A stretch of 64,000 nt of DNA from Fervidicoccus fontis Kam940 (GCF_000258425.1 NC_017461.1:1-64000), one strand, 5' to 3'. Positions 13,013 to 62,836 are shown, numbered from the stretch's first letter. Numbers and translations are program-made. The notes: a model not told the origin generated them from the sequence alone.

Positions 13013-14144
13013 CTTTCAATTCTATCTGAGAGATTCCTAGTAGAATTAAAGTATGTTGATAGGCTGAACAAGATCTTTCAATTCTATCTGAGAGATTCAA
13101 AGCGGGTTAAGAGTTTTCAAAGAAGACGAGTTCCACTTTCAATTCTATCTGAGAGATTCACATAACTTTAATTCAGAAACGCTAAAGCTCTTGATTGGAA
13201 ACAGAGACTTTCAATTCTATCTGAGAGATTCAGTGGGCTTACAAGACATTTTTAGTCTAAGAGAGAGCTTTCAATTCTATCTGAGAGATTCAAATCAAGC
13301 AATTATGTGAAAGCGGCAAGCTGGTCAGCTTTCAATTCTATCTGAGAGATTCAAATAGCTGATGCATTAGGGTTCTTCATAACTATCACACTTTCAATTC
13401 TATCTGAGAGATTCATGTCGATATACTTATTTTTTCGCCTTTTGCCTTTTTCTTTCAATTCTATCTGAGAGATTCACGTTAAGCGTGGCAGCACTTGAAG
13501 CAATATTCACATCTTTCAATTCTATCTGAGAGATTCTGTGGGCTGGTAAATACTTCGAAGCCGTGCTGCCGACTTTCAATTCTATCTGAGAGATTCAAGT
13601 CAAGCCCTGTCCCAGCTATTTTTGTTGAGGCGCTTTCAATTCTATCTGAGAGATTCAACGCTGGCTTTAATGAATTGAATTTCTTCACCTCTTTCAATTC
13701 TATCTGAGAGATTCATGGTGAAGTTGTTGAAGAACAGCCCGGTTTTATAATCTTTCAATTCTATCTGAGAGATTCCGGAAGAAATAGCACAGCAAGTTAA
13801 GCTCATACTTGACTTTCAATTCTATCTGAGAGATTCAACCCAAACCCCAAACCAAGTAAAAGATCCTAGAGCCTTTCAATTCTATCTGAGAGATTCGTAG
13901 TTCAAATTAGCGTTGATCAAATTATGGTGCCGGACTTTCAATTCTATCTGAGAGATTCCAATGCGTTTGAATTTACTGAAATGCATTTGGTAATACTTTC
14001 AATTCTATCTGAGAGATTCACAGCATGGGATCCTTCAGCCTATCCAAGTTGCTCTCACCTTTCAATTCTATCTGAGAGATTCTACAAAATAATGCTAAAG
14101 TATTTGAAGCAGTTACAAAGCTTTCAATTCTATCTGAGAGATTC
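13013..14144 (-). CRISPR. CRISPR array 2 (CTC-type repeats)
   Basis: Nineteen 24-nt repeats (CTTTCAATTCTATCT, GAG, AGATTC on this strand) start at 13013, 13075, 13136, 13208, 13268, 13329, 13391, 13452, 13513, 13573, 13633, 13691, 13752, 13813, 13873, 13935, 13996, 14059 and 14121. They are separated by 18 spacers, mostly 34-38 nt, with one of 48 nt (13160-13207). The AT-rich leader follows 14144, so transcription is leftward. The repeat equals that of array 1. The leader-repeat junction reads TGCA then GAATCT, as in the other arrays. The trailer end (13013) shows no repeat decay. Confidence 0.98.
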
Positions 14145-14568
14145 TGCACGATTTTTTGAGCTCATTTGTATAATTTATAATTTGGTATTATAATAAAAAC
14201 TTTTCGGTCCAATTGCAAAAATTGCAAGATCTGATATATTTTTCCCCATTTTTTCTAGGAAATTGTAATAAAAAATATATAATAGAAATATGTTTAATTT
14301 ATCCTTTAGTTTAAAATCAGCTTTGTTCCCAACTATGCGAAATTTCATCCATAAAATTCATTCACAAATTTTTATTTATAAAGGATTTAAATACTTCCCA
14401 AAATAAAAAGGGAAAAAATAATGAATTTTAGATTAAGGTTTGGTGCTTTTCGGCTCTAGCATTTTAAAAGCAGAATTTTATGGTTTCTAAATGATATTAA
14501 AGATTTTAGCGAGAGAGTATAAAATTTCAGTAAAATATTATATTTATTCAAAATGAAGAAGAATATAG
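14145..14568 (-). promoter_or_regulatory. leader of CRISPR array 2 and shared 5' region of the CARF-PIN gene
   Basis: About 420 bp of strongly AT-rich DNA between the array and a divergent CARF-PIN gene. At 14386-14420 it keeps the block TTTATAAAGGATTTAAATAC followed by TTCCC and GGGAA arms, which is nearly the same as 56426-56466 in the leader of array 3. The rest has diverged strongly from the leaders of arrays 3, 4 and the mini-array. It must hold the pre-crRNA promoter near its array end and the promoter of the CARF-PIN gene at its other end. Confidence 0.75.
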
Positions 14569-15900
14569 TTGGTGAAACATTTGGACCTGATAATTCCCTA
14601 CTCTCCAAGCAATCAGGTTCTCATAGGAACGCTCGGCTATGAGCTTCTAGCGAGCGATAATATAGAGAGAGTCATTGTACTTTCTGAGAATGATGCTGGC
14701 TCACAAGCTGAGGCTTTGAGATCTATAGGCAAAAAGCTGGGAATCAGCGTTGAGATCAAGAACCTCGGGACTGAGCTCCACTCGTGGTCCTCCTTTTCAA
14801 TGACCCCAGACTCTGTTCTCGACATAACGCCGGGAAGGAAGATCTATGCCTCCCTCCTACTTCAGAGCTGCATGAAGAGGGAGGGATGCAGGGCGAGGTA
14901 CCTCTACTTGGAGGACGAGAAGAAGTACGGGTACAATTACTTCGGATACATGCCCATGTGGGCATTCAAATTCATTGAGTTCCACCCAGAGCTCCACCAA
15001 GCAGACTTGAGCGTCAGAAGGCTTGAAAAGGTGCTCCACGCGGAAGGAATAGAGGAGAAAGAAGCAAGCGTTATTCCAGAAACTTTTCAGTCCATAATAA
15101 ATCTCCACTCATATTCAGGAGATGAGGAGTTCTCGATCGAGGCCTGCGGGGGGAGGGCTGAGTTCAGATTTGGAGATAAAGGGCTGTTTCTAAAGGATTT
15201 CTCATTCTTGGGAAAAGGGGATGAGGAGGCGTTTGATGAAGCTCTGAAGAGCTTTCTCGAAATAGAGAACAGAGATGAAGCTGCTGAGAAGGCCAAGAAA
15301 TGCATAGATGAGGGAGGGGTCATCGCACTGGACACCAATGTTCTAATACAGGGAAGGATGTTCAACTTCTTGAGATCCCACAGTAAAAATGTGGAAATAC
15401 TGAAGCCGGTTTGGTCGGAGATCATCCCTTATGCTCTTGAGGAGAAGATCAGCTCAGTTGGAAGGAGGCGCCTCGCAGCATTGAGCAGGGCCGCTGCGCT
15501 CAACAACTCTGTACCTGCTATGAGGGATTACCGCAGAGGGGATCAGGAGATCATCAACTCCCTCAAAAATATGAAGAACGAAAAAATGAAGGTCTGCTTC
15601 ATGAGCTCCGATAGGAGGCTGAGTGCCATTGTCTCAACGGTTCTTGGAGACGACACAATATTTCTCGAATCGCCAGAGCTCAGAGAAGAGAGCAGAACGT
15701 GCGCCGAGGAGGTCGCGGGCTTCATGATGAATCTGGCTTTTTACTGCAATGAAGGCAAGCTCAGGATAGGAAGGGAAGAATATATGTTCAAGCTTGGAAA
15801 GATAAGCAACAAAACGCTTCAAATGCCTGAGCTGAGGGTCTCTTCTGAATCGATGAGCGTTTTGAAAGCCATAGATTTGCTCGTTAGGGCTACCGTTTAG
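14569..15900 (+). CDS. CARF-PIN fusion protein (paralogue 1)
   Basis: A 443-residue two-domain protein. The N-terminal half looks like a CARF sensor: IIPYSPSNQVLIGTLGYE at the start and DITPGRKIYAS (residues 85-95), matching the D-T-G-G-K ligand motif of Can1/Card1-type CARF domains. The C-terminal part is a PIN-like nuclease with D255 (VIALDTNVLIQGR), an acidic residue near E284 and D348 (MSSDRRLS). By analogy it would bind a cyclic oligoadenylate made by a type III Cas10 and then cut RNA or DNA. TTG 14569 starts the frame; TTG 14581 (DLIIPYSPS) is also possible. It is paired head-to-head with the array 2 leader. The paralogue is at 60074-61393. Confidence 0.8.
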   Translation: MVKHLDLIIPYSPSNQVLIGTLGYELLASDNIERVIVLSENDAGSQAEALRSIGKKLGISVEIKNLGTELHSWSSFSMTPDSVLDITPGRKIYASLLLQSCMKREGCRARYLYLEDEKKYGYNYFGYMPMWAFKFIEFHPELHQADLSVRRLEKVLHAEGIEEKEASVIPETFQSIINLHSYSGDEEFSIEACGGRAEFRFGDKGLFLKDFSFLGKGDEEAFDEALKSFLEIENRDEAAEKAKKCIDEGGVIALDTNVLIQGRMFNFLRSHSKNVEILKPVWSEIIPYALEEKISSVGRRRLAALSRAAALNNSVPAMRDYRRGDQEIINSLKNMKNEKMKVCFMSSDRRLSAIVSTVLGDDTIFLESPELREESRTCAEEVAGFMMNLAFYCNEGKLRIGREEYMFKLGKISNKTLQMPELRVSSESMSVLKAIDLLVRATV

Positions 15901-15910
15901 CTTATGCTGT

Positions 15911-15936
15911 GTTAAAAATAAGCAAGACTAAGAGAA
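15911..15936 (+). repeat. 26-bp motif, copy 1
   Basis: This is a 26-bp sequence with core AATAAGCAAGACTAAGAGAA. A copy with one difference lies on the minus strand at 40822-40847, and its first 21 bases recur at 47413-47433. All three are just downstream of a gene and close to a CRISPR repeat or leader. Here it follows the stop of the CARF-PIN gene by 10 bp and precedes a solitary CRISPR repeat by 30 bp. The function is unknown. Confidence 0.7.
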
Positions 15937-15966
15937 TATGCTTCTTGAACTGAGAATGTTACTGAG

Positions 15967-15990
15967 GAATCTCTCAGATAGAATTGAAAG
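15967..15990 (+). repeat. solitary perfect CRISPR repeat (CTC type)
   Basis: One unmutated 24-nt repeat identical to those of arrays 1 and 2 stands alone between the CARF-PIN gene and the DUF72 gene. No second repeat and no full leader adjoin it. It is in the same orientation as array 1. It may be the last remnant of an array or a product of off-site spacer-integration chemistry. Because it is unmutated, it could still be a Cas6 cleavage site in a transcript reading through from the CARF-PIN gene. Confidence 0.95.
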
Positions 15991-21587: not shown

Positions 21588-22682
21588 TCACTTCCTCGAA
21601 TACTTATCGTATATCCTGCTGAGCACCCCTCCAACAATCGCTCCGACCACGTCGTCAGTCATCAGAGGCAGCCCGCTCAAATCCTCGAGATCTTTATCCC
21701 CCTCCTTGATCCTGTCTATCCAGTAGTATGCGAGGAGGCCTTTGAATCCGTTTAAGTATTCGGCAATAGCCTTTCCCATTACCTCATCAGCTATTATTCC
21801 AGAGGAATCGCTTGAGTACTCCTCCGCTTCAATCCCTGGAAGCAGCCCAAAGGACAGGAATGATTCGGCGAGCCTCGCACTCCTTATGATTATCCTCAGG
21901 TTCGGGTCCTTTAGAATGGAGTCGATCTCCTCTTTTATTTCTTCCTCAGCATCAAGTTCACTGAGGAACGGTATTGGCGCTTTTCTGTAGGCCCTCACTG
22001 CCAGCTTTACGACCTCGTCAATATCTTTGAATCCAAGAGTTTTCGCGGTGTGCTCATCAACAGGAGCGTTCCTGATCTGCTCTGAAAGCGCTCTCAAAAC
22101 CGCTAAGGATGCAGAGATCCCCACATCTGTAGCCGAGCCTGCAAATCTCTCCCCTCCAAATGGAGAGGCGACCATTGTCGCATCTGAAGGCGTTCCTACA
22201 TAAGATGAAGAGTAGCACATTGGGCCGCCGAGTGACATTATCATCCCCTTCACCTCGGAAACTGTCCTGAAGAGGTCCAAAAGCCCCACATCGCTAAGAG
22301 GCTCATCCACGATTACAGCCACATTTATGGTCCCGAACTTCCCTCTCTCTGCACCTTCAAAGCATGAAGGAGAATCTACGCCATACGTAACGAAAGCCTC
22401 CGCTTCTACCCCTTTGTAGCTGGAAGATCCCCTCGAGTATTTTTTCAAGTCTACAGCCGTGAGAAAGATGGCGGACTCCTCAATGTCTATCCCCAAGCTT
22501 CTGGAAGTTTCCCTGCAGAAGTTGTTAAGATCAACATGCTCAAAGTTCTTCGGAACCCTTTTGAACCCTATGTACCTGATCCCTCCATAAACCTTTGGGC
22601 AGCCTGATGTCGAGAGGGAAGAGTAGCTCTTTCCCAGGTCTATAACTAAAGCATCGCTTTCCTCAACAATTACCCTTGATAT
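21588..22682 (-). CDS. cbiS: CbiS: adenosylcobinamide amidohydrolase (CbiZ) fused to alpha-ribazole phosphatase (CobZ)
   Basis: Full length is about 365 residues. The CbiZ domain includes SSLSTSGCPKVYGG, EAFVTYGVDSPSC, GTINVAVIVDEPLSD, SDATMVASPFGG and ATDVGISASLAV. The C-terminal 150 residues carry a PgpA-like CobZ domain (GIIADEVMGKAIAEYL, LPLMTDDVVGAIVGG). This is the fusion described as CbiS in Methanopyrus. The start is odd: homology begins at 22682, where the paralogue has ATG but this copy has ATA, and no ATG, GTG or TTG occurs in frame before TTG 22496. Either AUA is used or the N-terminal 62 residues are lost. Confidence 0.85.
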   Translation of the reverse strand: MSRVIVEESDALVIDLGKSYSSLSTSGCPKVYGGIRYIGFKRVPKNFEHVDLNNFCRETSRSLGIDIEESAIFLTAVDLKKYSRGSSSYKGVEAEAFVTYGVDSPSCFEGAERGKFGTINVAVIVDEPLSDVGLLDLFRTVSEVKGMIMSLGGPMCYSSSYVGTPSDATMVASPFGGERFAGSATDVGISASLAVLRALSEQIRNAPVDEHTAKTLGFKDIDEVVKLAVRAYRKAPIPFLSELDAEEEIKEEIDSILKDPNLRIIIRSARLAESFLSFGLLPGIEAEEYSSDSSGIIADEVMGKAIAEYLNGFKGLLAYYWIDRIKEGDKDLEDLSGLPLMTDDVVGAIVGGVLSRIYDKYSRK

Positions 22683-22688
22683 GGCCTC

Positions 22689-23744
22689 TCACCTCATTTT
22701 CATGAGCCTTTCATACTCAATATATATGGACCGCTTTAAATCCTCCACGCTTCTTCCCTTCAATAGGGCTAGTACTGAGGTCCCTCCTGCCCCAACTCCC
22801 TCCTTCACAAACCCCTCATCATAAGCCTTAAGCCCTTCAAAGGGGGAGTCGGAAAAGGAGAGGTCCGCATAGACTAAGGAAGCTCCAGGGGCTAATGAGC
22901 CCACTAGTTTGCCCATTTTCTCTCCCTTATCATCAAAGACCCACTTCGTAGTTGCTATGCTCACCTTTTCCTTATCGAATTCCTCTCCTGATGCCCTCAT
23001 GAGCGCTAAGGCTGCGAGCATTTGAGTCCCACCTGCAAGTATTACATGGCTCCCCCCGCTCAATGCGCCGATCGCGATTCCAGCTATTGATATGTGGAGC
23101 GGGTCCCCCAAAACGTCGTTAATCTCGAATGGGTCATCCATTCCTTCAGCCCTCTTGAGGGCTGCTTCTACGACCGATTTCTTTATGTCAATAGGGTTTA
23201 CATTTGAGGAGCTGCTTACAGAACTGCAGTCCCCCATGCCCAAACCCTTGAGTATAGAAAGAGCAGTAGTTGTACCACCAGGCATGCTCTCCCCTATCAA
23301 AACAACATCTGATAGAGAGCTGAAGGTCTTCCCCGCGGTCTTCGCCTCAGAAAATAGCCTTTTCGATGTCCCTCTTGGAAGCGCTTCCTCTTTATCTATC
23401 CTCCCCCCGACCCTCCTGCTAGGGAGTGTGAGGGCAGGCAGCTTTGGCTCCACATACGACCCTGAATTCACTACAATGAAGGGCGCGTTTGAAAGCTGAA
23501 GTGCCGCCCTCGTTATAACTGCAGGCGTGGGGATCCCCGAAGGTGTAGTAGGGATAGAGTCTATGCTTTGAGGCTTCCCATACTGAACGTACTCGACATC
23601 TAGAGCTGGAGTGAATAGAGTAGCGGCTGCCATTTCCCCTGCCAGAGAAATGTTCGGAATTGTTGATGTGAGTGTGGAGGCGATTACGCAAACTACTACA
23701 GCTTTTCCCTTTCTCATCTCTTCAGTTTTGAAAGAGCCGTGCAC
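22689..23744 (-). CDS. cobT: CobT-like phosphoribosyltransferase
   Basis: A 351-residue protein of the archaeal CobT family, which makes alpha-ribazole phosphate from nicotinate mononucleotide and a lower-ligand base. Recognised from STLTSTIPNISLAGEMAAAT, TTPSGIPTPAVITRAAL, the glycine-rich IGESMPGGTTTALSILKGLG and ILAGGTQMLAALAL. The start is GTG at 23744. It is the first gene of B12 copy A and lies 6 bp before the CbiS frame. A frameshifted paralogue lies at 44329-45403. Confidence 0.9.
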   Translation of the reverse strand: MHGSFKTEEMRKGKAVVVCVIASTLTSTIPNISLAGEMAAATLFTPALDVEYVQYGKPQSIDSIPTTPSGIPTPAVITRAALQLSNAPFIVVNSGSYVEPKLPALTLPSRRVGGRIDKEEALPRGTSKRLFSEAKTAGKTFSSLSDVVLIGESMPGGTTTALSILKGLGMGDCSSVSSSSNVNPIDIKKSVVEAALKRAEGMDDPFEINDVLGDPLHISIAGIAIGALSGGSHVILAGGTQMLAALALMRASGEEFDKEKVSIATTKWVFDDKGEKMGKLVGSLAPGASLVYADLSFSDSPFEGLKAYDEGFVKEGVGAGGTSVLALLKGRSVEDLKRSIYIEYERLMKMR

Positions 23745-40812: not shown

Positions 40813-40821
40813 ATCGATTTC

Positions 40822-40847
40822 TTCTCTTAGTCTTGCTTATTTTCAAC
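40822..40847 (-). repeat. 26-bp motif, copy 2
   Basis: This is the inverted copy of the motif at 15911-15936, differing by one base, with core AATAAGCAAGACTAAGAGAA on the minus strand. It lies 10 bp after the stop of the 695-residue protein gene and about 100 bp before the mini-array leader. Copy 1 also lies 10 bp after a stop codon, though in the other orientation relative to the gene. Confidence 0.75.
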
Positions 40848-45403: not shown

Positions 45404-45409
45404 GGCTCT

Positions 45410-46029: not shown

Positions 46030-46260
46030 GACCTTTAACTTTTGCCCCATGTCATGAAGGAAGCCTATCAAGAAAGCATCTTGAGATTCTGGTACATCCT
46101 CATATCTTTTACCATAAACCTCGACAAAAATTTCGAAGGCCCTCCCTACAGCGTAGCTGTGAAGAAGAAGCGATATCGATGTCCAGTACTTCGCAGGGGT
46201 AGATGATATAGGTGGAGGAAGCAGAGAATAGGCGATTTTAAGGTCGCGAGCGTAACCCAA
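46025..46260 (-). pseudogene. HD-domain cas gene fragment (Cas10d or Cas3''-like)
   Basis: Reading leftward from TTG 46260: GYARDLKIAYSLLPPPISS, LLLHSYAVGRAFEIFVEVYG, SQDAFLIGFLHDMGQKLKV. The LLHSYAV helix and the FLHDMGQKL motif are typical of the HD nuclease domain at the N-terminus of Cas10d/Cas10 or in Cas3''. The frame then passes directly into antisense cbiS sequence at about 46025. Only the first 80 residues or so remain. It differs from the intact Cas3'' at 49095-49880. Confidence 0.6.
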
Positions 46261-47412: not shown

Positions 47413-47455
47413 GTTGAAAATAAGCAAGACTAAATCTGCCAGATAGAAATGAAGG
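47413..47455 (+). repeat. 26-bp motif (partial) fused to a relic CRISPR repeat (GCC type)
   Basis: Positions 47413-47433 repeat the first 21 bases of the motif seen at 15911 and 40822. They run straight into a decayed repeat at 47432-47455 (AATCT, GCC, AGATAGAAATGAAGG). The stem ATCT/AGAT is intact and the loop is GCC. The same GCC loop occurs once in array 3, at 55194-55217 near its trailer end. Confidence 0.75.
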
Positions 47456-49090: not shown

Positions 49091-49094
49091 TACT

Positions 49095-49880
49095 TCATCT
49101 CTCCTCTATACATGACAAGTCGAAATCGACGAAGAATTTCTTTTTAATGTTTCTCTCTTCACCCATATCGCTTTCAACTTGGCTAGCAGAATAATTGTCG
49201 CTCATGATAAGTACCTTCAGAATATGCTGAGCCATCATCGATACCTTCGCAGCTTTCGGTTCATGCATTTCAAATATATTCCACGCTAAATATCTTTCTG
49301 TAAACTCTTTATAAGTTTCAATTAATCCTTTGAGTTCTTCATCTTCGACTTTCTCCCTCATTTCCAGCCATTCTTCCAGTCCCATCCCATTGACCACTTT
49401 AGCGAGAAAGTCCCTTAAAATGAAAGGTATTTTACTTCTATAGGTACTGTTAAGGAATCTCCCATAAAATCGATTTATTATCGCTAAAGTGCTTAACCTA
49501 TCTCCCATTGCCAGGTGGTGAGCACGCACAGCGAGATGCATTGAGATCGGAACTGCATAGAACGAGAAATCATCGGGTTTCATGTTCTTCTTTAATTCAA
49601 GTTTCTTCGAAGCGATGTGCATTACTAGGCTGGAAAGGATCTCATGTCCTGCGAAGCTTTCAGGTGGCTCCTTGGTTTCAGGATTATGATAAAAAATTTT
49701 CCCCATATCGTGAAATATAATGGTAGAAACCATCGCCATGTCCAGCTCTCTTTCCGGGATGCCGAGCCTCTTAGATAGCCTCGCTGTGTATTTCCTACGT
49801 TTGTAGCACTTCTCATAGAAATCTATCATTTTTTTAATATGTTCATCTAACATCTGTCCTTTTCTAGCCCAAAAGCTCAT
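49095..49880 (-). CDS. cas3'': Cas3'' HD nuclease (type I-A)
   Basis: A 261-residue HD-domain protein with STIIFHDMGKIFYH at about residue 52-65, a second His in FAGHEILSSL and further His in VRAHHLAMG. It is the stand-alone nuclease of the split type I-A Cas3 and degrades the displaced strand with two metal ions. It is coupled to the cas3' helicase gene by a 1-bp overlap. Confidence 0.92.
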   Translation of the reverse strand: MSFWARKGQMLDEHIKKMIDFYEKCYKRRKYTARLSKRLGIPERELDMAMVSTIIFHDMGKIFYHNPETKEPPESFAGHEILSSLVMHIASKKLELKKNMKPDDFSFYAVPISMHLAVRAHHLAMGDRLSTLAIINRFYGRFLNSTYRSKIPFILRDFLAKVVNGMGLEEWLEMREKVEDEELKGLIETYKEFTERYLAWNIFEMHEPKAAKVSMMAQHILKVLIMSDNYSASQVESDMGEERNIKKKFFVDFDLSCIEER

Positions 49881-51538: not shown

Positions 51539-51567
51539 AGGAATCCCTCGTTATGCGCATAAACACC

Positions 51568-52782
51568 TCAAGCCTTCTTTATGAGCTTCATGAGTTGCCT
51601 GAGTACTCTGGGGTCTCTGAAAGTATATTCAGCATCCCCCGAGAGTCTAGAAAGTCTATAGACGTTTCCATAAGGATCGATGCCTGAGAGGATATTCCAG
51701 AGGCTCCTGACCATTGCGCTCATCGTCGAGAGATCTCCCCATTTCTCCTGGCAGATCGCTGAGCTTCTGCCCGCGGCAGATCTCAGGGTACACTTCAGCA
51801 AGTCCTCGATGCTTTTTTTCAGCGTTCCATACTCCACACCCGTGATGAGGGGCTGAAGCATTTGATAGAGCGAGCTGAGGCTTATGGGGATTTCTTCTGT
51901 CACTATGTATGCGTTGTTCCCAACGGAGATCCTTTGATAGCTGAGGCTTATGACACCCGCTCTACCTAGTATTTGCGGGCTCATGTTGAGGAATAGTAAC
52001 AGGGTATAGGCTTCTCCATGAGAAGGCGGCTCTTTAACCTTTATGGGAGCTTCTGAGAAGTCTTCTATAACGGAAGTTATAACGCTAGCTGAACCTATAT
52101 TCTGGATTTCGGATAATATGAGGTTTTCATCAATCAACAAGCTGAGGAGTGTATCTCCGAAGTAGCCAGAGAAAGAGGCCAGCCAACCACCACCGAGTAT
52201 GCCGTACCAAAGCGGAGAAATCTTCATATCGCCCTTGAATTTCAGCGAGAGGTAGTTTCTTCCATATTCATATTTTTCAAGCTTGAGTACCTGTAACTGG
52301 GCAAAGTCAGCCATGTCTCCTCCTAAATATAGAGTATCACCCGAAAGATTGATGCTTTTCAGCTCTGTTTCGAGGGCGATGTTGCCGATCCTGGATATAT
52401 ACATAGGCATGCTATCTACAACTTTCTTGAAGAAGGAGCAAATGGTGTCATCATCGCTGATGGAAAAGCCAAGCTTTGATGAAAGTCTTTGGGCTACCCA
52501 CTTATAATCGTTGATATTCAGTTTAATACGGGGGCAAGGAAGTCTTTCACTATTCGTGGCCAATAGCTTTGACTTATACATATTTGTGATTGAGGAAAAA
52601 GCCCCATTGAGGACAAGGTCAGGCGAACCACTGAAAACAAGAGAGTCTCCAGCTATATTGACTCCACTAGGTGCATAGCCCGCCATGAATGAGGCGAAGT
52701 ACAGAGAGAGCCTCCTCGCTGTCTGAAACTCGAAAGGCGGAATTTTCATGATAAATCCTCTTTCCCCCATCGTTCTCACCAT
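51568..52782 (-). CDS. cas8a: Cas8a large subunit (Csa4-like)
   Basis: A protein of about 400 residues at the position of the type I-A large subunit, between cas5a and cas3'. It resembles the Csa4/Cas8a2 family: FEFQTARRLSLYFASFMAGYAP at the start and IDPYGNVYRLSRLSGD near the end. It is likely to recognise the PAM. ATG 52749 (MKIPPFEFQT) is preceded by GGGGAAAGAGG and is a better start than 52782, which overlaps cas5a by 7 bp. Confidence 0.82.
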   Translation of the reverse strand: MVRTMGERGFIMKIPPFEFQTARRLSLYFASFMAGYAPSGVNIAGDSLVFSGSPDLVLNGAFSSITNMYKSKLLATNSERLPCPRIKLNINDYKWVAQRLSSKLGFSISDDDTICSFFKKVVDSMPMYISRIGNIALETELKSINLSGDTLYLGGDMADFAQLQVLKLEKYEYGRNYLSLKFKGDMKISPLWYGILGGGWLASFSGYFGDTLLSLLIDENLILSEIQNIGSASVITSVIEDFSEAPIKVKEPPSHGEAYTLLLFLNMSPQILGRAGVISLSYQRISVGNNAYIVTEEIPISLSSLYQMLQPLITGVEYGTLKKSIEDLLKCTLRSAAGRSSAICQEKWGDLSTMSAMVRSLWNILSGIDPYGNVYRLSRLSGDAEYTFRDPRVLRQLMKLIKKA

Positions 52783-53564
52783 TCTATCAGCTTTATCTCA
52801 TTCTCCTCGATAGCGTATGCGCAGATATCTCTATCCGAATATACCCTGAGCTTCTTCTGCGTGAAAACGCTGCCGTCGTATGCGAAAGCCACCTTAATTG
52901 TCGGCATCCCCATCGACGTGGGACCTGACATTTTCCTCCAATCGTAATGCTCGACGATTTCAACCACTCCTCCATCAAAACTCTCTACCTTGAGACCAAT
53001 CTGTGTAAGGGGAACAGTGTAATCGGTCACGAATTCCTTATTGCATATTTCTTCAGCTACTCCATAAGAGACCTTTGTTGGAGAAATGAGAGATTCTTTG
53101 TCTCCCAATCTTACCATGGAGAAAGATGCAGCTATAACTTCCTCCTTCCATCGGTGTCCCAGATTCCTCGAGGCAGCATCCTCATCGAACAGATATATGA
53201 CGGAAAGATCTGACTCTCCGCTGACATAGAGCCTCTGGTAGGCGAAAGCATCGCTCTTAAGTTCTCTTTCATTCTTCTTGTAGAACCACATTTTCGTCAC
53301 AGTGCTATAAGGAAGCAGCGATAGACCGCTTCTGAAATACACTCCTCTGAGCGAAGAAGACAGCAACTTCGGCATGTAGTCTTCGCTCGATTCTGGAAAG
53401 TTCTTCAATTTTGCCAATGGGTAGGAAAGTGCCCCAATCAGCGTAGTTGGTGGCGGTAACCTGAAAGATGTCCTGCTCTTTGTAGCCGTAATTATTCCGA
53501 AATTCACCGCTGAGGATACGGGCAAAAAATTAACTTTTAGAAAAAAGGGTTTATTCTGAGTCAT
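52776..53564 (-). CDS. cas5a: Cas5a Cascade subunit
   Basis: A 262-residue RAMP protein of the Cas5 family with the N-terminal FRLPPPTTLIGALSYPLAKL signature (the PPP-T--GAL motif) near residue 34. It caps the 5' handle of the crRNA in the type I-A complex. It overlaps cas7 by 4 bp and cas8a by 7 bp. Confidence 0.92.
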   Translation of the reverse strand: MTQNKPFFLKVNFLPVSSAVNFGIITATKSRTSFRLPPPTTLIGALSYPLAKLKNFPESSEDYMPKLLSSSLRGVYFRSGLSLLPYSTVTKMWFYKKNERELKSDAFAYQRLYVSGESDLSVIYLFDEDAASRNLGHRWKEEVIAASFSMVRLGDKESLISPTKVSYGVAEEICNKEFVTDYTVPLTQIGLKVESFDGGVVEIVEHYDWRKMSGPTSMGMPTIKVAFAYDGSVFTQKKLRVYSDRDICAYAIEENEIKLIEW

Positions 53565-54670
53565 GGACCCTCTGCACCTAAACGACTCAACACGATTCTC
53601 GTTAATTCTTTGAAGAACTCCTCGGGCGTTTCTGTTGACTTCACCCCTTCGACTTTTTCTCCGTAGACTATCACATCCTTCCAGAACTCCAGTTCAAGAT
53701 TTTTCATCAAGTCGGCAGTTTTTTCCACCTTCTTAATGGTTTCTTCTATGTATCTCTTTTTCTGGGGGGGCACGGGTGCTATGGGAACAGGGTGACTTAC
53801 TACTCCAACTAGGCTCTCTACACTCAATATTGGATTGAACCTGCTCCTCTTCGCTCCGAACTGCTGCGCTCCAAATGTAAGTGATAAGGCTAAGAGCGCC
53901 GTTTTTACTCTCCTGAGCTTTTCAGCATTATCTACAACATCCTCTTTTCTTATCATGCTCGTTTTTCCGATATTCGAAACATCAAGGAAGAATGAGATCC
54001 CATATACAGTGGAGGCTACTTCAACGTAATAGATCATCTGCGACTTTCTCTTTCTCTCCTCTTTCTCTGTTTTCTCTTTTATTTCCTCTTCTGTTTTCTC
54101 TTCTATTTCCTCTTTAGAAGCTATCTGTCTGGTGTGCATTTGAGCTTCTATCACCGATTCAGCTACAGCATCTTCTATGGGGGTCGCATACCCAACATAA
54201 AAGAGGCTGGTCCTTCTGATTGGAAGTTCTTCGGCAAGCATGAAACCTCCAATATCGGCGACAAGGCTTTCCTTGATGGCGACCCTTTCAAACTCATGTT
54301 GGAAATCTTCCACAGTTTTTTTGCTTCCTTTATTTGATTTCGCTTGTTCGAGGATTTCTTTCAGAGAGTCAGTTATGTGTTTTTTATCGGAGAACTTTAT
54401 CATCTCGTTCCTCATTGCCCATTGGTCGATCGGTGGAGGATTGATCTTTTCCTTTTCGTATATCAGTTTTGCCGCTTCGACTAAGTTCGATTGAAATGCA
54501 TGTCCTAGACTTTCTCCGCTGATTGCTGGAACATATATGACTCTGTACCCCTCCGACGTCTTCATTATATATGGAACTCGCCGATGCTTTGAAACGTTTC
54601 CAATGGTCTCTGTCATATTCAGTGCCTCAGCGTTTGCAATAACTCTTCCTGAAATGTATATGTATACCAT
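53561..54670 (-). CDS. cas7a: Cas7a (Csa2) Cascade backbone subunit
   Basis: A 369-residue RAMP protein: YISGRVIANAEALNMTETIG, PAISGESLGHAFQSNLVEAA and VASTVYGISFFLDVSNIGKT are typical of Csa2. Six or more copies coat the crRNA spacer. Residues about 186-210 form a very charged Glu/Lys insert (KEEIEEKTEEEIKEKTEKEE) coded by an imperfect tandem repeat of about 27 bp at 54058-54115; related proteins are shorter there. Its ATG overlaps the stop of csa5 by one base. Confidence 0.93.
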   Translation of the reverse strand: MVYIYISGRVIANAEALNMTETIGNVSKHRRVPYIMKTSEGYRVIYVPAISGESLGHAFQSNLVEAAKLIYEKEKINPPPIDQWAMRNEMIKFSDKKHITDSLKEILEQAKSNKGSKKTVEDFQHEFERVAIKESLVADIGGFMLAEELPIRRTSLFYVGYATPIEDAVAESVIEAQMHTRQIASKEEIEEKTEEEIKEKTEKEERKRKSQMIYYVEVASTVYGISFFLDVSNIGKTSMIRKEDVVDNAEKLRRVKTALLALSLTFGAQQFGAKRSRFNPILSVESLVGVVSHPVPIAPVPPQKKRYIEETIKKVEKTADLMKNLELEFWKDVIVYGEKVEGVKSTETPEEFFKELTRIVLSRLGAEGP

Positions 54671-55002
54671 TACGCAACAACCCCCTCTGCTTTATTTTCT
54701 TCGCTTTCTTTCTCATGAGTTAGCGAGAGAGTTGCCAAAATGCTGCCAGCGATTTTTCCCTTCTTTTCATCCATCAGGAGCCTGATGGTGATTTCCACGT
54801 CCCTCTGTGGAGGAAGTCTATTGGGATCTTCGCTCGCTATCATCCTGAGGGCTCTCCACAGAGATTCTACTCTCAGTTCAGGTTTCTGAGAATCAGCAAT
54901 GACATCTATAGTGTTGTAGGCCTTATTTTCTATAAGAAGGTTCAATGCCGTCGCAACCCTCCTGAGGGCCCACCACTCTGAAGGTTCGAGCTTTTCGGCC
55001 AT
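54670..55002 (-). CDS. csa5: Csa5 (Cas11a) small subunit
   Basis: About 110 residues, helical, beginning MAEKLEPSEWWALRRVATAL and containing VESLWRALRMIASEDPNRLP, matching the Csa5 small subunit that stabilises R-loops in type I-A. ATG 55002 is preferred over 55023: a TATA-like AAGTTTAAATAC (rc of 55035-55046) would start transcription near 55015. It is the first gene of the interference operon. Confidence 0.85.
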   Translation of the reverse strand: MAEKLEPSEWWALRRVATALNLLIENKAYNTIDVIADSQKPELRVESLWRALRMIASEDPNRLPPQRDVEITIRLLMDEKKGKIAGSILATLSLTHEKESEENKAEGVVA

Positions 55003-55075
55003 ATTTATCACTATAATAATCAAACGAAGAAGTTGTATTTAAACTTTTGTTTTTTAGATATATTAATTTTAAAAG

Positions 55076-55132: not shown

Positions 55133-56194
55133 CTTTCAATTCTATCTAATAGATTCTTTTTCAAAATGATCAATTCTTTTTCGAAAAGTCATTCTTTCAA
55201 TTCTATCTGGCAGATTCAATATCCAATCCTTACCATGCCCTTCATAATATGTACTTTCAATTCTATCTAACAGATTCTTGAACAGTATGGGGGGGATCCT
55301 CGCGAGACCAATACTTTCAATTCTATCTAACAGATTCCCCGCAGGCAGGCGATAGAAAACATTGTTAATGCGCTCTTTCAATTCTATCTAACAGATTCTA
55401 ACCGGGCTGGTTTGTGCAGTATTCGACGGGATCGCTTTCAATTCTATCTAACAGATTCGCAATTTGCTAATTGCCACAAGAATAAAACAACTACTCTTTC
55501 AATTCTATCTAACAGATTCAGCAGTCGGGCCACGTTAATCCGGGGCTAATTTCCCTTTCTTTCAATTCTATCTAACAGATTCACTCTCAATGTCAGCGTT
55601 ACTAACTCGCAGCTAAATGCTTTCAATTCTATCTAACAGATTCTTGGTAGGCGCAATTACGTTTATTAGCCAACTGAACGCCTTTCAATTCTATCTAACA
55701 GATTCAGCTAAGCAACCGCAACAACAACAACAAAGCACACTTGCCTTTCAATTCTATCTAACAGATTCACTACCTTTGGCAGGAGTTATACGAGAAGAAA
55801 CTAACTTTCAATTCTATCTAACAGATTCAAAAACAATCGAAGAGGACATAGAAAACTTAAGAGAACTTTCAATTCTATCTAACAGATTCGGATCCCCAGC
55901 GTTGACATATACGAAACGAACTCGTCCTTTCAATTCTATCTAACAGATTCCGAAGACAAAAGTAAGCAAGATGAAATAGCGGATTTCTTTCAATTCTATC
56001 TAACAGATTCAATTTATCGCTGGCCAATACTCTTAAAGATCATGGCTTCTTTCAATTCTATCTAACAGATTCAAGCGTTATATTTGAGCTTACTATAGTA
56101 GCGTTCACATCTTTCAATTCTATCTAACAGATTCCAGAGGGTAAGATAAACGAGGGGCTGATCGCCCTATCTTTCAATTCTATCTAACAGATTC
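55133..56194 (-). CRISPR. CRISPR array 3 (GTT-type repeats)
   Basis: Eighteen repeats start at 55133, 55194, 55254, 55314, 55375, 55435, 55496, 55559, 55620, 55682, 55745, 55805, 55866, 55927, 55987, 56049, 56111 and 56171; in the sense strand each is GAATCT, GTT, AGATAGAATTGAAAG. The two leader-distal repeats have loop changes (ATT at 55133, GCC at 55194). The leader is at the right, so transcription is leftward. Counted from the leader, spacers 4-9 (55644-55986) are identical to spacers 4-9 of array 4. A partial inverted repeat (GATAGAATTG, 55117-55126) next to the last repeat can pair with it. Confidence 0.98.
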
Positions 56195-56580
56195 TGCACT
56201 ATTTGTAGCGTTCATTCTTATTATTTATAATGGCGTATTATCAATAAAAGCTTTTCGCCCTCGCTCGAAAAAATCGCGAAAGGACCATCAATTCCCAGAA
56301 ATTTCTGGGAAATTATAATTAAAAGTATATAATAATTTAACAAATAAGTTATTCATTTATAATGCCCTCTGCTTTGATGGAATAACATGTTGAAATTATA
56401 TATAGCATTTTGTCTGAATTTTGCATTTATAAGGGGTTTAAATACTTCCCGAAATAGCTCGGGAAAAAATTACGAATCGCGAGACAGCTTCAGAAAAGCA
56501 TGATTTTTCACAGGTATTTCCGGGATTTTTTTACTATCTCAACTTTCATACAAAAAAATTTGCAATTCTAAATAATGTTT
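56195..56580 (-). promoter_or_regulatory. leader of array 3 and csa1 promoter region
   Basis: Positions 56195-56466 match the array 4 leader (61496-61767) without a difference, in inverted orientation. It contains two palindromes, TTCCCAGAAA-TTTCTGGGAA (56292-56311) and TTCCCGA...TCGGGAA (56446-56465). The second follows TTTATAAGGGGTTTAAATAC (56426-56445) and is well placed as an operator of the csa1 operon. The array-side end reads TTATTTATAATGG, a TATA for the pre-crRNA in the other direction. Confidence 0.9.
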
Positions 56581-56582
56581 CG

Positions 56583-57482
56583 ATGATGCAGATGCTCTTT
56601 TCTCTGGTGAAGGATGTTCCCAAGAGGCTGTATTGGCTCAGGAGCAATGATCCTGTTCCCGAGGACTTGAGAGGATGGAGCTATCATACCTACCCGGTCA
56701 GGCCCAGAGCCTATTTCGGATTGGGGGTGAGCGAAGTAGCGTACAAGTACTGTGAAACCTTCAGAGATCTGTGGATGCGGAGGAAGGAGTATGTCAGGGG
56801 GGAAGTGCTCGAGAGCTCTCCTCTTTACATGGGAAAACTCATCCATTCGCTCATGAACTATGCTTTCAGGGATGCTTCAGAAATAGTGAGCAGAAATCTC
56901 GGTCCTCTGGAATCCATTAGAAGGGCTCAGGAGCTGTCCAGAAAAAGGGCCTCTGAGCTCACGAAGAGCTATTATAGGAAGGCTATGGAATTCTACATGA
57001 CTATGGTGCTCTCGGCGATCAGCACACTCTGGATACAGCAATCTCTGACTAACGATCCTCTCTCTTACATATCGATCAAGACCGAATTCGTCATCGATGG
57101 TACGCCTGTAGGTTTGAGCAACACTCTGAGGGTCGATGCATATCACGAAGGAGGAGTGATAATCGAGTACAAGCTGGGAAATCCAGATCCTTTGCTGACT
57201 GAGAGGCATTCTGTCGGACTCGCAGGATATGCTCTCGCCATCGAGAGCTCTCTCGACATCCCAATAGACTACGGCGCAATCGTCTATATCAGCGAACTTT
57301 CCAGGAGACCATCGATAAAGGTCTTTCCCGTTTACATCTCATCCCTATATCGCAAAAAGTTCTTGGAGAACAGGGACGAAGCGATAGAGGTTCTCATGAG
57401 GGCAACACCGCCTCCGAGAAGCGGCAACTGCTATCAGTACTGCCCCTTCTTCAAGGCGTGCAACGGAGGGGAGAGGAGTTGA
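56583..57482 (+). CDS. csa1: Csa1 (Cas4-like) adaptation protein
   Basis: 299 residues. The Csa1 family is related to Cas4 RecB-like nucleases. Seen are YHTYPVRPRAYFGLGVSEVA, the catalytic-type stretch VIIEYKLGNPDP (residues about 196-207) and a C-terminal iron-sulfur cysteine cluster CYQYCPFFKAC. It heads the adaptation operon csa1-cas1-cas2-cas4, the Sulfolobus gene order, and helps choose PAM-flanked spacers. Confidence 0.9.
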   Translation: MMQMLFSLVKDVPKRLYWLRSNDPVPEDLRGWSYHTYPVRPRAYFGLGVSEVAYKYCETFRDLWMRRKEYVRGEVLESSPLYMGKLIHSLMNYAFRDASEIVSRNLGPLESIRRAQELSRKRASELTKSYYRKAMEFYMTMVLSAISTLWIQQSLTNDPLSYISIKTEFVIDGTPVGLSNTLRVDAYHEGGVIIEYKLGNPDPLLTERHSVGLAGYALAIESSLDIPIDYGAIVYISELSRRPSIKVFPVYISSLYRKKFLENRDEAIEVLMRATPPPRSGNCYQYCPFFKACNGGERS

Positions 57483-58462
57483 GGCTGCTTGTTATAACCG
57501 GCTATGGGAAAAGACTCTCTGTCGAAGGAAAGGTCTTCAAGATTGAAGATAGGAATAAGAGCTCTTCGAAGGTAAATCCAGCAGATATTGAGAGCATAGT
57601 AATTGAATCGAGTGGAGTGAGCATAACTTCCGCAGCAATAGAGCTCGCCTCGATGGCCGGAATACCCATATTTATAATCAGAGGAAGGGGATCCCCCACC
57701 GTGATATCTCCGATATACTCCGTGAAGACCGCTGAGACCAGAAGGAAACAGTACTCTGCTACGACGGGAAAATCCGGCTGCACCCTCGCCAAGAGCCTCG
57801 TCAGATCTAAGATATCGAACCAGGCTGAGTGCCTGAGAAATCTGAACCGATACTTCAACGATGAAGATGTGAGGAAGGAGGTGGAAAAGCTCAGGGAAAA
57901 CTCGAAGAGGGCGCAGGAGCTTCAGTGCTCGGAAAATTGGAGTTCTCAACTGAGACAGATCGAATCGAGCGCCGCGAGGGCTTACTGGGGGAGCTTGGCA
58001 GTATTCCTCCCAGAATCTATCGGCTTCGATGGAAGAGATGTGGATTCGGGAGATGCGTTCAATTGCTCTCTGAACTACATCTATGCTCTCCTATACAGTG
58101 AATGTTTCAAGAAGCTATCGATAGCTGGTCTTGATCCTTACGGAGGGATATATCACGTCGATAAGGCGGGAAGGATGAGCTTAGTCTACGACTTCTCCGA
58201 TCCGGTTAAGCCATTTCTCGATTACAGCCTAACTAAGGAGAGACAACTCCTCCTCAACATCAAGGTCTCAGATGGAGTCCTGGATGAAGATGCCAGAAAG
58301 AATATAATTCTTCTGTACGATGGGGCGAGGAAATCTAAAGTCAGAATCTACGACAAGACGAGCGTAACTTTTCAGGAAGCCCTCACATCTTTTGCCTTCA
58401 ATCTAGCTGAGAGCTTCAGAAAAAGCGAGGAGGCCAGGATGGATATGTCGATGAAGTGGTGA
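57479..58462 (+). CDS. cas1: Cas1 integrase
   Basis: About 327 residues. The N-terminal beta domain reads LVITGYGKRLSVEG, followed by ADIESIVIESSGVSITSAAI and IPIFIIRGRG. The C-terminal helical domain has the catalytic-type residues in IESSAARAYWGSL (Glu), DPYGGIYHV (His) and LVYDFSDPVKP (Asp). It joins new spacers at the leader-repeat border with Cas2. TTG 57479, overlapping the csa1 stop, matches family starts; GTG 57458 is also open. Confidence 0.94.
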   Translation: MRLLVITGYGKRLSVEGKVFKIEDRNKSSSKVNPADIESIVIESSGVSITSAAIELASMAGIPIFIIRGRGSPTVISPIYSVKTAETRRKQYSATTGKSGCTLAKSLVRSKISNQAECLRNLNRYFNDEDVRKEVEKLRENSKRAQELQCSENWSSQLRQIESSAARAYWGSLAVFLPESIGFDGRDVDSGDAFNCSLNYIYALLYSECFKKLSIAGLDPYGGIYHVDKAGRMSLVYDFSDPVKPFLDYSLTKERQLLLNIKVSDGVLDEDARKNIILLYDGARKSKVRIYDKTSVTFQEALTSFAFNLAESFRKSEEARMDMSMKW

Positions 58463-58465
58463 TCT

Positions 58466-58756
58466 TTGGGCTTCTATATAATCGTCTATGACATAGGAGA
58501 TCAGGGCAAGAGACAGAGGGTCGTGGAGATCCTTGAAAAGTGGGGGCTGAGAAGAATACAGAGGAGCGCGTTCGTGGGATACGTGCAGGAGGGAAGAGCG
58601 AAGGATATCGCGAGAGAGATAGAGATGACGATCGATTTGGAGAAAGATGTGGTCCACATAGTCCAAATAGAGAGGAAAGAATGGAATCGGGCTATTGTGG
58701 TGGGAACGAGCAAATGGAGCGCCGGATCTCCCGAAGGATCGGTGGTCTTGAGATGA
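58466..58756 (+). CDS. cas2: Cas2
   Basis: A 96-residue ferredoxin-fold protein starting GFYIIVYDIGDQGKRQRV, with the Cas2 Asp in YDI, and RRIQRSAFVGYVQEG. It bridges Cas1 dimers in the integration complex. The start is TTG at 58466, 3 bp after cas1. The tail (TSKWSAGSPEGSVVLR) overlaps the cas4 start by 4 bp. Confidence 0.93.
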   Translation: MGFYIIVYDIGDQGKRQRVVEILEKWGLRRIQRSAFVGYVQEGRAKDIAREIEMTIDLEKDVVHIVQIERKEWNRAIVVGTSKWSAGSPEGSVVLR

Positions 58757-59334
58757 AAGAGCTGAAGGGCAGCATAAGCTTGAGCCTAATAAGGAACCTA
58801 CCATATTGCGAGAGAATGGTCTGGTTCAAGTTAAACTCAGATATAGAGGAACCTCCAACCCCCTCGATGATTCTATCGAGCGAGAGGCACAGGGATCTCA
58901 AGAGAATCGCGGAGAGCCTCATGCTACCTCAGCCCATGCAATTCAACAAGAAGCTATGCCATCCTCAAATTCCCGTCTGCGGTTCGCCCGACATCATTTC
59001 TGGGGAAGAGAGGAAGATCATAGTCGAGTACAAGCATTTTTCCAGGGAGAGAGGCGACTTCCAAGACTTCAGAGCCCAGCTGCTGACATACGGCTGGTTA
59101 GTTCAAGAAGTGGAGGGGAGAGTCTGGAAGCTAGTCCTCATGGTGGGAAGAGAAGTTGTCTGGGAGCAGGAATACAGTTACGAACTTCACATCAGCGCGA
59201 GGCATCTCGTAGAAAGACTCCTGAAGATTTTGGACTCTCCTACACCTCCAAGCGCGAGCTATGGGGGAAAGTGCTCATACTGCTTCTTCAAGTCAGTATG
59301 CTCCTCTTCCAACCAGCCTGCCGAAATTTTATGA
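58753..59334 (+). CDS. cas4: Cas4 exonuclease
   Basis: 193 residues with the RecB-like core CGSPDII...KIIVEYKHFS (residues about 75-97), QLLTYGWLVQE and a four-Cys iron-sulfur site made by PYCERMVWF near the N-terminus and CSYCFFKSVC near the end. It trims pre-spacers and sets their orientation. It is the last gene of the adaptation operon and converges with the broken csa3 (6-bp overlap). Confidence 0.93.
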   Translation: MKELKGSISLSLIRNLPYCERMVWFKLNSDIEEPPTPSMILSSERHRDLKRIAESLMLPQPMQFNKKLCHPQIPVCGSPDIISGEERKIIVEYKHFSRERGDFQDFRAQLLTYGWLVQEVEGRVWKLVLMVGREVVWEQEYSYELHISARHLVERLLKILDSPTPPSASYGGKCSYCFFKSVCSSSNQPAEIL

Positions 59335-60073: not shown

Positions 60074-61393
60074 CTAAAGAGTTTCCCTAACTATCATGTC
60101 CAAGAACGCTAAGTCGTCAGCCCTTTCGGGACCTTTCAACTTGAGATTGGGTATACCTGTACCCAGCTCGCCGATCCTCCCGAGCTCGAAGGAAAAGGTC
60201 CTTTCAGCCATGCTCAGCTTGAACCCCTTGCACTGGAAAGCTAGGTTCAGAAAGAAGCTGTAGAGCTCCTCCGCGCAGAATTTCCTTCCCTCTTCGAGAA
60301 ATGGAGCTCTCATCAGAACTTCATCTCCCCTCAAGACGTTGCTCACTGCTAGGCTCAGCCTGACGTCTGAGGTGAGGAAGCAGACCTTCTTCCTCTCGTC
60401 GAGCAACTTCTTCAGGGAGTTGATTATCTCAACGTCTCCCTTCAGCATCCTATCCATAGTGGGAATGGTCTTATTCAGGGCTGTGGCTCTGATCACCCCA
60501 AGCAGCTTCTTCCTCCCGAGAGAGGTCTCCTTCTCCTCCAGCGCCTGGGGGAGCAGCTCTGCCCAGATTGGCTTCATTATCTCCACATACTTGTACTGGG
60601 ACTTCAGATAGTCGAAGATCCTACCATGGATGAAGACGTTGGTGTCGGGGACTATGATCCCCCCTTCGCTTACGCACTTAGAGAGTTTAGAGTAGACCTC
60701 CTCCTTGTTCTCCAGCTCCAGAGAGCTCGAGAGAACCTCCTCGAAGGTTTCCAAATCTCCAGAGCCAAAGGAGCTGTAGCTCTTCAGGATGAGGCTTTCC
60801 TCTGTGAACTCGAACTCGGCCCTTCCACCGCATGCTTCTATGGAGAACTCGTTAGCTCCAGACTGAGAGTACAGGTTCACGATAGCTTGTATTGTTTCTG
60901 GAGCTACCTTCTGTAAATGCTCCTGAGGGTCAGAGATGTGAACTTCCTTGAGCTTCGATGCATCTAATTTCAAGAGATTGAGCTCTGGATAGAGCTCGAT
61001 GAACTTGAAGGACCACTTCGGCATATAGCCGAAGAACTTGTACCCATATTTCTTCTCCTCCTCTATGTAGAGGTACCTCGCCCTGCAGCTCCTGGAGACT
61101 AGGCATTTCTGGAGGAGGACAGAAGCATATATCTTCCTACCAGGTGTAATGTCCAGGATCGTATCTTCCGGTATCTCGAGACGGGCCCAGGACCTCGGGT
61201 CTCTCCCCAGAACCCTCAAGCTCAGCTTCGCTCCCAGAGCTCGGGAGATCTTCTCGATGATTTCCAGCATCTCTTCCGGTTCCTGCTCCGATGTCAAAAT
61301 GATCTCCTCGAACTTCTCTCCAGTCGCGATCTCGTATCCGAGCGTCCCCAGGAGAACCTGCCTGCTGGGAGAATAGGGTATGATGAGCTTCAT
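60074..61393 (-). CDS. CARF-PIN fusion protein (paralogue 2)
   Basis: About 439 residues and colinear with 14569-15900. The CARF half has LIIPYSPSRQVLLGTLGYE and DITPGRKIYASVLLQKCL. The middle SIEACGGRAEFEFTEESL block is shared with the paralogue. The PIN half has IIVPDTNVFIHGRIFDYL and VCFLTSDVRLSLAVSNVL. ATG 61393 matches the paralogue's start. It is divergent from the array 4 leader, the same arrangement as paralogue 1 with array 2. The likely role is a cyclic-oligoadenylate-activated nuclease serving the type III system. Confidence 0.82.
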   Translation of the reverse strand: MKLIIPYSPSRQVLLGTLGYEIATGEKFEEIILTSEQEPEEMLEIIEKISRALGAKLSLRVLGRDPRSWARLEIPEDTILDITPGRKIYASVLLQKCLVSRSCRARYLYIEEEKKYGYKFFGYMPKWSFKFIELYPELNLLKLDASKLKEVHISDPQEHLQKVAPETIQAIVNLYSQSGANEFSIEACGGRAEFEFTEESLILKSYSSFGSGDLETFEEVLSSSLELENKEEVYSKLSKCVSEGGIIVPDTNVFIHGRIFDYLKSQYKYVEIMKPIWAELLPQALEEKETSLGRKKLLGVIRATALNKTIPTMDRMLKGDVEIINSLKKLLDERKKVCFLTSDVRLSLAVSNVLRGDEVLMRAPFLEEGRKFCAEELYSFFLNLAFQCKGFKLSMAERTFSFELGRIGELGTGIPNLKLKGPERADDLAFLDMIVRETL

Positions 61394-61405
61394 TGAAAGT
61401 ACCAA

Positions 61406-61767
61406 TATAGTTCTAGTAAAGCCAAATAGTTAAAGTTATATTTCAGAAATTCTTTTTTGAGCCGCGCAAAAGAGTGTGTTTCGCGATTCGCAATATTTCC
61501 CGAGCTATTTCGGGAAGTATTTAAACCCCTTATAAATGCAAAATTCAGACAAAATGCTATATATAATTTCAACATGTTATTCCATCAAAGCAGAGGGCAT
61601 TATAAATGAATAACTTATTTGTTAAATTATTATATACTTTTAATTATAATTTCCCAGAAATTTCTGGGAATTGATGGTCCTTTCGCGATTTTTTCGAGCG
61701 AGGGCGAAAAGCTTTTATTGATAATACGCCATTATAAATAATAAGAATGAACGCTACAAATAGTGCA
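61406..61767 (+). promoter_or_regulatory. leader of CRISPR array 4
   Basis: Positions 61496-61767 are identical to the array 3 leader in inverted orientation. They include TTCCCGA..TCGGGAA (61497-61516), TTCCCAGAAA-TTTCTGGGAA (61651-61670) and the TATA-like CATTATAAATAATAAG about 30 bp before the first repeat. The segment 61406-61495 is unlike the matching flank of array 3 and should hold the promoter of the divergent CARF-PIN gene. Confidence 0.9.
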
Positions 61768-62836
61768 GAATCTGTTAGATAGAATTGAAAGTGAGGATGA
61801 CTACATTGTAGTGCCTCCACAGAGACAGCGAATCTGTTAGATAGAATTGAAAGTGTCAACTTCAAGCTGAATTACTTGCTGCTGATCGCTGAATCTGTTA
61901 GATAGAATTGAAAGTTTGTGCCACTTTTTGCGATCGGCGCGATTGTGCTAAATGAATCTGTTAGATAGAATTGAAAGAAATCCGCTATTTCATCTTGCTT
62001 ACTTTTGTCTTCGGAATCTGTTAGATAGAATTGAAAGGACGAGTTCGTTTCGTATATGTCAACGCTGGGGATCCGAATCTGTTAGATAGAATTGAAAGTT
62101 CTCTTAAGTTTTCTATGTCCTCTTCGATTGTTTTTGAATCTGTTAGATAGAATTGAAAGTTAGTTTCTTCTCGTATAACTCCTGCCAAAGGTAGTGAATC
62201 TGTTAGATAGAATTGAAAGGCAAGTGTGCTTTGTTGTTGTTGTTGCGGTTGCTTAGCTGAATCTGTTAGATAGAATTGAAAGGCGTTCAGTTGGCTAATA
62301 AACGTAATTGCGCCTACCAAGAATCTGTTAGATAGAATTGAAAGCTCCAATGCCTGGGGCACTAGAGTTATTATTATTATGAATCTGTTAGATAGAATTG
62401 AAAGTAATAACGAGGCCTTCGTTCTCGAGCTGTTTCAAATGAATCTGTTAGATAGAATTGAAAGACTCCTAGCCCAATATCAATTAATGCAAGTTCTGTA
62501 GAGAATCTGTTAGATAGAATTGAAAGTATAACATGCATCTTATCACCTAAGCTATCATCTTCCTGGAATCTGTTAGATAGAATTGAAAGGCTTTAGATAT
62601 CTCGTGTTCCTTCAGATAGTATTTAAGAATCTGTTAGATAGAATTGAAAGCTTGTTATTTTTCCTTGGCTAACGAGACTGTCTAAGTGAATCTGTTAGAT
62701 AGAATTGAAAGTTAGACACGGCGAGACGCAGATAATACCCTGGACCGGAGAATCTGTTAGATAGAATTGAAAGTATCGTGCATAACGAGTTTAAAGAGTG
62801 AGTACCAATCGAGAATCTGTTAGATAGAATTGAAAA
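61768..62836 (+). CRISPR. CRISPR array 4 (GTT-type repeats)
   Basis: Eighteen repeats (GAATCT, GTT, AGATAGAATTGAAAG) start at 61768, 61830, 61891, 61954, 62014, 62075, 62136, 62196, 62259, 62321, 62381, 62441, 62503, 62566, 62627, 62688, 62750 and 62813, with 17 spacers of 35-39 nt. The leader is at the left. Spacers 4-9 (61978-62320) equal those of array 3; spacers 1-3 and 10-17 do not. The last repeat carries an extra A before its final G. The ring-nuclease-like gene begins 57 bp later. Confidence 0.98.

Follow-up and report, generated by a model that had tools for sequence, protein, structure and literature searches.

In Sulfolobus, the clustered regularly interspaced short palindromic repeats (CRISPR) of the AB and CD families differ mainly in the loop of the repeat hairpin, and the Cas6-1 family of S. 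solfataricus cleaves a short 3-bp repeat hairpin at its base (PMC4041471). In the first repeat of S. solfataricus, altering bases 1–4 abolishes integration and altering bases 9–12 reduces it (PMC5815122), and Cbp1 of this species depends on the two repeat ends but not on A13/T14 of its repeat (PMC10883916). Furthermore, spacer-repeat blocks recombine between CRISPR loci in Sulfolobales (PMC4390879). We analyzed the CRISPR repeats in the first 64,000 bases (bases 1–64000, hereafter the window) of the one-contig genome of Fervidicoccus fontis Kam940 (1,319,206 bp), in which the arrays share one 24-base frame and are distinguished by a triplet in its middle. We consider it likely (a probability of roughly 0.7) that the arrays belong to a single type I-A system, and that the triplets represent lineage drift in the least constrained middle part of the repeat, preserved by copying. 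The repeat families are ordinary in kind, and their published precedent is the AB/CD pair of S. solfataricus with Cas6-1/Cas6-3 (PMC4041471). The two cases have in common repeats of 24–25 bp, a type I-A system, related Cas6 proteins, an 8-nt handle identical within the family pair, a short hairpin (predicted in Fervidicoccus) cut at its base, and differences that center on the loop (in Fervidicoccus probably so). The Fervidicoccus families are, however, closer to each other, differing at three positions only.

Repeat positions 1–24 are numbered within GAATCT-NNN-AGATAGAATTGAAAG, the triplet NNN occupying positions 7–9. Exact matches to GAATCTNNNAGATAGAATTGAAAG numbered 70 in the window, against a shuffled-sequence expectation of 0, and all of these copies have the exact frame that the initial annotation had described for every repeat. 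One further repeat forms the final 24 bases of the contig (1319183–1319206), so array 1 crosses the contig start. This plus-strand array (1–794 plus 1319183–1319206), which the initial annotation left out by restricting itself to 13013–62836, has 14 CTC repeats (1319183, then 37–794), and its leader lies before the contig start (locus L009). Array 2 (13013–14144, minus strand) has 19 CTC repeats running from 14144 to 13013, and a solo CTC repeat is located at 15967–15990 (plus strand). A mini-array (41284–41368, plus strand) consists of two ACT repeats (41284 and 41345) and one spacer. Array 3 (55133–56194, minus strand) has 18 repeats, 16 of which carry GTT, and the two oldest, at the trailer end, carry GCC (55194) and ATT (55133). 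Array 4 (61768–62836, plus strand) has 18 GTT repeats, with G24A in the final one (62813). The listing of exact matches agrees with the triplets originally assigned to arrays 1/2, arrays 3/4, the mini-array, 55194, and 55133. The frame is not exact at 35025 (GAATCTGTTAGATAGGATTGAGAC), 35077 (GAATCTATCAGAAAGAATTGAGAG), and 47432 (AAATCTGCCAGATAGAAATGAAGG), which are fossils with two or three changes outside the triplet.

Substitutions were counted by hand from the listed sequences along a minimum-change path linking the live types, including GCT from ARK-14 (G007, Fervidicoccus sp.), an approximately 99% identical strain represented by a draft metagenome-assembled genome (MAG) of 79% completeness, in which contig joins need caution. 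The live repeats had at least six substitutions at positions 7–9 and two elsewhere (G24A, and A16G in one repeat of a CTC array of ARK-14); finding six of eight substitutions within 3 of 24 sites corresponds to p = 8.5e-5. Repeats within one array are copies, and about six independent events lie behind the bias in the Kam940 genome. In the fossils (35025, 35077, 47432, and 73663), for each of which the choice of the nearest live type was a judgement, one change was inside the triplet and 10 were outside it (live versus fossil, Fisher p = 0.006). Other genomes of the order show the pattern as well: among the loci read, 30 of 38 within-genome differences were at positions 7–9 (p = 1.5e-15 against 3/16, uncorrected for relatedness), and the count was 12 of 14 when types present as a single copy were left aside (p = 1.2e-7 against 3/16, likewise uncorrected). 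The remaining differences across the order were at position 10 (n = 4) and at positions 11, 12, 14, and 16 (n = 1 each). Two other genomes, seen in search output only and standing outside the 38, differ between arrays near the 5′ end (positions 2–3). These results support the earlier proposal of a drifting middle triplet between flanks that stay fixed, and the bias is real and non-random, if ordinary in kind. The claim that every difference in live arrays falls in the loop was too strict, given G24A in array 4 and A16G in ARK-14. In other genomes (loci L106, L110, and L074), arrays mix two mid-repeat variants (TCG/CCG; AAAC/AGGC; ATTGC/ACTGC). A repeat pattern search of viral contigs gave no matches.

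Two leader families were found, both ending in GTGCA at the repeat. Family A goes with CTC, and family B with GTT and ACT, plus GCC, GCT, and ATT at the old ends. Leader A of array 2 (14145–14415, minus strand) was recorded with 271 bp identical to the array 1 leader, and leader B of array 3 (56195–56466, minus strand) with 272 bp identical to the array 4 leader, also of family B (61496–61767, plus strand); in the leader comparison, identity was 96.9% for the A pair, 99.0% for the B pair, and about 60% between A and B. The leader B of the mini-array (41001–41283, start approximate, plus strand) is 96–97% identical to the leaders of arrays 3 and 4 over the aligned columns and has an insertion of about 61 bp. 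Spacers 4–9 are common to arrays 3 and 4, identical and in the same order, and the spacers on both sides differ. The two arrays share GTT because the leader and this six-spacer block were copied from one onto the other, and the spacer order indicates that copying would have been followed by new acquisition in both. With a shared leader, six shared internal spacers, and different newest and oldest spacers, the case shows no difference in kind from inter-locus recombination of spacer blocks in Sulfolobales (PMC4390879). Across the whole genome, one match to cas1 was obtained.

Array 3 preserves a time series of triplets, ATT to GCx to GTT. An ARK-14 contig (C57) matches the trailer region of this array and the cas genes at 99%, and the last spacer (AATGACTTTTCGAAAAAGAATTGATCATTTTGAAAAA) is identical in both strains, flanked by GCT/ATT in ARK-14 and by GCC/ATT in the window. 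The triplet is thus seen changing between strains at this trailer (GCC versus GCT). Among 23 ARK-14 spacers read, none besides this one was shared with the window. Degenerate repeats at trailer ends are known, and the oldest repeats of array 3 resemble them in differing from the rest. Unlike in such degenerate repeats, only the triplet differs here and both strains have the last repeat in common, which points to change along the lineage in addition to decay.

The initial annotation had assigned the triplet to a 3-nt loop on a 4-bp ATCT/AGAT stem (positions 3–6 with 10–13) and had suggested selection on that stem. We examined the register in an alignment (A1) of 31 distinct repeat types from the order, including types with this frame from its other families. 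The RNAalifold consensus fold pairs 4–16, 5–15, 6–14, and 7–13, with 96.0% of cells paired; a two-sided change from U6-A14 to C6-G14 occurs in four types/genomes, and A7-U13 or G7-U13 is present in 26 of the 31 types. None of 500 shuffles reached the paired cells or the covariation score of this fold, a result that relatedness can inflate, and slid versions of the stem, in which relatedness is preserved, also scored far lower. The ATCT/AGAT stem had 76.6% of cells paired, with no covariation and no two-sided change, and it was broken at C5-G11 in 18/31 types and at U6-N10 in 11/31. The order-wide alignment therefore favors the consensus fold over selection on the 4-bp stem. An extension of the consensus stem by pair 8–12 was rejected, as this pair is unpaired in 20/31 types. 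The base of the consensus stem is at position 16, and for the 8-nt handle AUUGAAAG to be left, the cut must follow base 16. UCU/AGA is thus the most probable stem, with R7-U13 as an additional pair in the leader-B types but not in CTC. In all Fervidicoccus types the triplet lies inside the UCU/AGA hairpin, and A or G at base 7 can pair with U13; most likely, the triplet would make up the 5′ portion of a loop of 7 nt, or else a 5-nt loop would be closed by the first triplet base. The location of the triplet on the loop side is thus retained, and the ATCT/AGAT stem with its 3-nt loop is probably wrong.

Several points weigh against our interpretation of the hairpin and the free sites. The repeats of the order were gathered by patterns in which much of the sequence is preset, which makes the 31 types a non-random sample, and the two-sided change affects one base pair only, in four sequences that may be non-independent. 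The hairpins of the Fervidicoccus repeats are very weak (−0.2 to −1.3 kcal/mol), and in CTC repeats pair 7–13 is broken and 3 bp are left, ATCT/AGAT then being the minimum-energy fold (−0.2). Positions 10–11 are unchanged in Fervidicoccus despite lying in the loop of the consensus fold, and so the hairpin is not by itself enough to explain which sites are free. Because the energies are near zero, the repeat RNA is probably unfolded for the most part when free, and hairpin formation would take place on the enzyme, as reported in Sulfolobus.

By transferring the position constraints of Sulfolobus onto the Fervidicoccus repeat, we infer how the triplet may have become free. Positions 1–4 and approximately 9–12 would be needed by the integrase; UCU (4–6) and AGA (14–16) would form a short hairpin that Cas6 cuts at the base; and positions 17–24 would constitute the handle of the CRISPR RNA (crRNA). 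When the integrase and Cbp1 constraints are added to that of the hairpin, approximately 7–9 would be left as the freest, least constrained part of the repeat. A change there in the first repeat would be copied with each new spacer, resulting in a lineage-specific triplet; the triplets do follow leader lineage, with two leader families and one Cas1. Which protein constrains which position, and the neutrality of the drift, we likewise infer.

The constraint may instead act at the level of DNA, with a Cbp1/Cbp2-like protein and Cas1-Cas2 reading the ends of the repeat and leaving the middle uncontacted. Binding by S. solfataricus Cbp1 relies on bases close to the 5′ third of the repeat and to its 3′ end, and the related Cbp2 occurs in Desulfurococcales (PMC10883916); the barely stable hairpins also favor this explanation, as does the flank at 17–24, which is outside any stem and is conserved as well as the stem is. 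However, the coupled change between T6-A14 and C6-G14 and the choice of A or G only at position 7 in all leader-B variants are left unexplained, and we consider this explanation unlikely. That the ATCT/AGAT stem with its free 3-nt loop is itself the selected element seems to us quite improbable. It is intact in every live Fervidicoccus repeat, in a distant genus (AAA), and in the TCG/CCG repeats, and CTC, GCC, GCT, and CCG repeats have it as their minimum-energy fold, but its base is three bases off the cut, and the lack of covariation and the frequent break at C5-G11 described above also argue against it. Types that break 7–13 tend to retain ATCT/AGAT (Fisher p = 0.04, for a comparison picked once the data were known); as a finding of compensation this was rejected, the test being post hoc and the sequences related.

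It is very doubtful that the triplet is a working label by which Cas6 proteins or downstream effectors tell CTC from GTT crRNAs. S. solfataricus Cas6-1 discriminates between AB and CD repeats, probably via the hairpin loop (PMC4041471), and the window does contain two divergent Cas6 proteins, as initially annotated: Cas6-1 (279 aa; 46427–47266, plus strand) and Cas6-2 (304 aa; 47494–48408, minus strand) match at 27% over 62 residues. However, the ARK-14 ortholog of Cas6-1 (99.3%) adjoins a 49-repeat GTTGAAAATAAGCAAGACTAAGAG array, whose repeats belong to another family and begin about 170 bp away, a location suggestive of another plausible partner for Cas6-1 in this second family; given such a partner, the Cas6 pair is not evidence for labelling. 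Moreover, there is one type I-A effector set in the window, the part of the genome searched for it, and one Cas1 genome-wide, and ACT, GCC, and ATT share a leader family with GTT. With a single cas1 match, a triplet that tracks the leader lineage, copying between arrays 3 and 4, and another partner for Cas6-1, the suggestion of deliberate labelling has no positive support. Least probable is that the triplet acts as an address, the leader-A (CTC) and leader-B (GTT) crRNAs being told apart by Cas6 or at loading; if true, a single type I-A system would have two memory banks.

Cas6-2, the Cas6 of the operon, is assigned to the Cas6a family (PADLOC Cas6a, E = 1e-39), and its residues 24–300 match S. 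solfataricus Cas6 in phmmer (PDB 3zfv, E = 6.8e-29; 4ill, a structure that includes repeat RNA, E = 2.2e-28), which places it in the Sulfolobus Cas6-1 (Cas6a) family through a sequence relation to Sso1437/Sso2004. Cleavage by Cas6-2 at the base of the short hairpin, leaving the 8-nt handle, would fit both the handle and the covarying stem. The type I-A effector genes (48395–55023, minus strand) encode Csa3, Cas3″, Cas3′, a weak Cas8a2/Csx9-like protein, Cas5a, Cas7/Csa2, and Cas11a, and the adaptation genes (56583–59334, plus strand) encode Cas4/Csa1, Cas1, Cas2, and Cas4. The type I-A gene set was recognized with NCBIfam, Pfam, and PADLOC, the Cas8a match being weak and Csa5/Cas11a being found by PADLOC only. 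Two 443-aa proteins (14569–15900, plus strand; 60074–61405, minus strand), 49% identical and each near a CRISPR leader, match the PADLOC CARF+PIN model (E = 9e-76 and 1e-135) and have no Pfam match. A CARF-domain protein directly after array 4 (62893–63636, plus strand) is similar to TIGR02619 and weakly to a ring-nuclease model. CobT-like and CbiS-like cobalamin genes (44624–46057 and 21588–23744) have second, partial copies near Cas6-1 in addition to a fuller set at 18–24 kb.

The large second-family array of ARK-14 is gone from the window, in which stubs of the family are left at 15911, 40824, and 47413; a two-repeat array with a similar leader is located at 85947, outside the window. The fossil at 47432 is fused with the stub at 47413, forming a chimeric fossil (47413–47455, plus strand) in which 20 nt of the second-family repeat are joined to AATCTGCCAGATAGAAATGAAGG. 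The two fossil repeats at 35025–35100 (plus strand) are 52 bp apart, and the same place is occupied in ARK-14. An ARK-14 contig (C302) matches the flank of 15967 at 99.5%, and exactly at this place it has the end of a CTC array with 23 or more repeats; the solo repeat at 15967 is therefore a stub left by an array that was lost. At 15911–15990, a second-family stub (one mismatch) lies 32 bp from this solo CTC repeat, so that stubs of two families adjoin. Elsewhere in the genome, a single relic repeat (GAATTTGCTAGATGGAATTGAAAG; 73663–73686, locus L133) is preceded by a decayed leader-B-like sequence. On ARK-14 contig C308, window positions 37686–40847 and, reversed, 47433–46317 flank one second-family array. 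As far as this MAG contig shows, the segment between 40824–40847 and 47413–47436 has opposite orientations in the two strains, with CRISPR repeats at both breakpoints, and the window retains a whole or partial repeat at each end of the inversion. Our literature search found no paper on Fervidicoccus CRISPR and, with the terms tried, none on CRISPR-mediated inversions.

The comparison with relatives carries a caution, namely that a stem read from the repeats of one genome may sit elsewhere in its relatives, and it points to a test of the hairpin register for crenarchaeal Cas6. Drift frozen in the order of the arrays serves as a natural archive of the repeat bases that tolerate change while spacers continue to be acquired.

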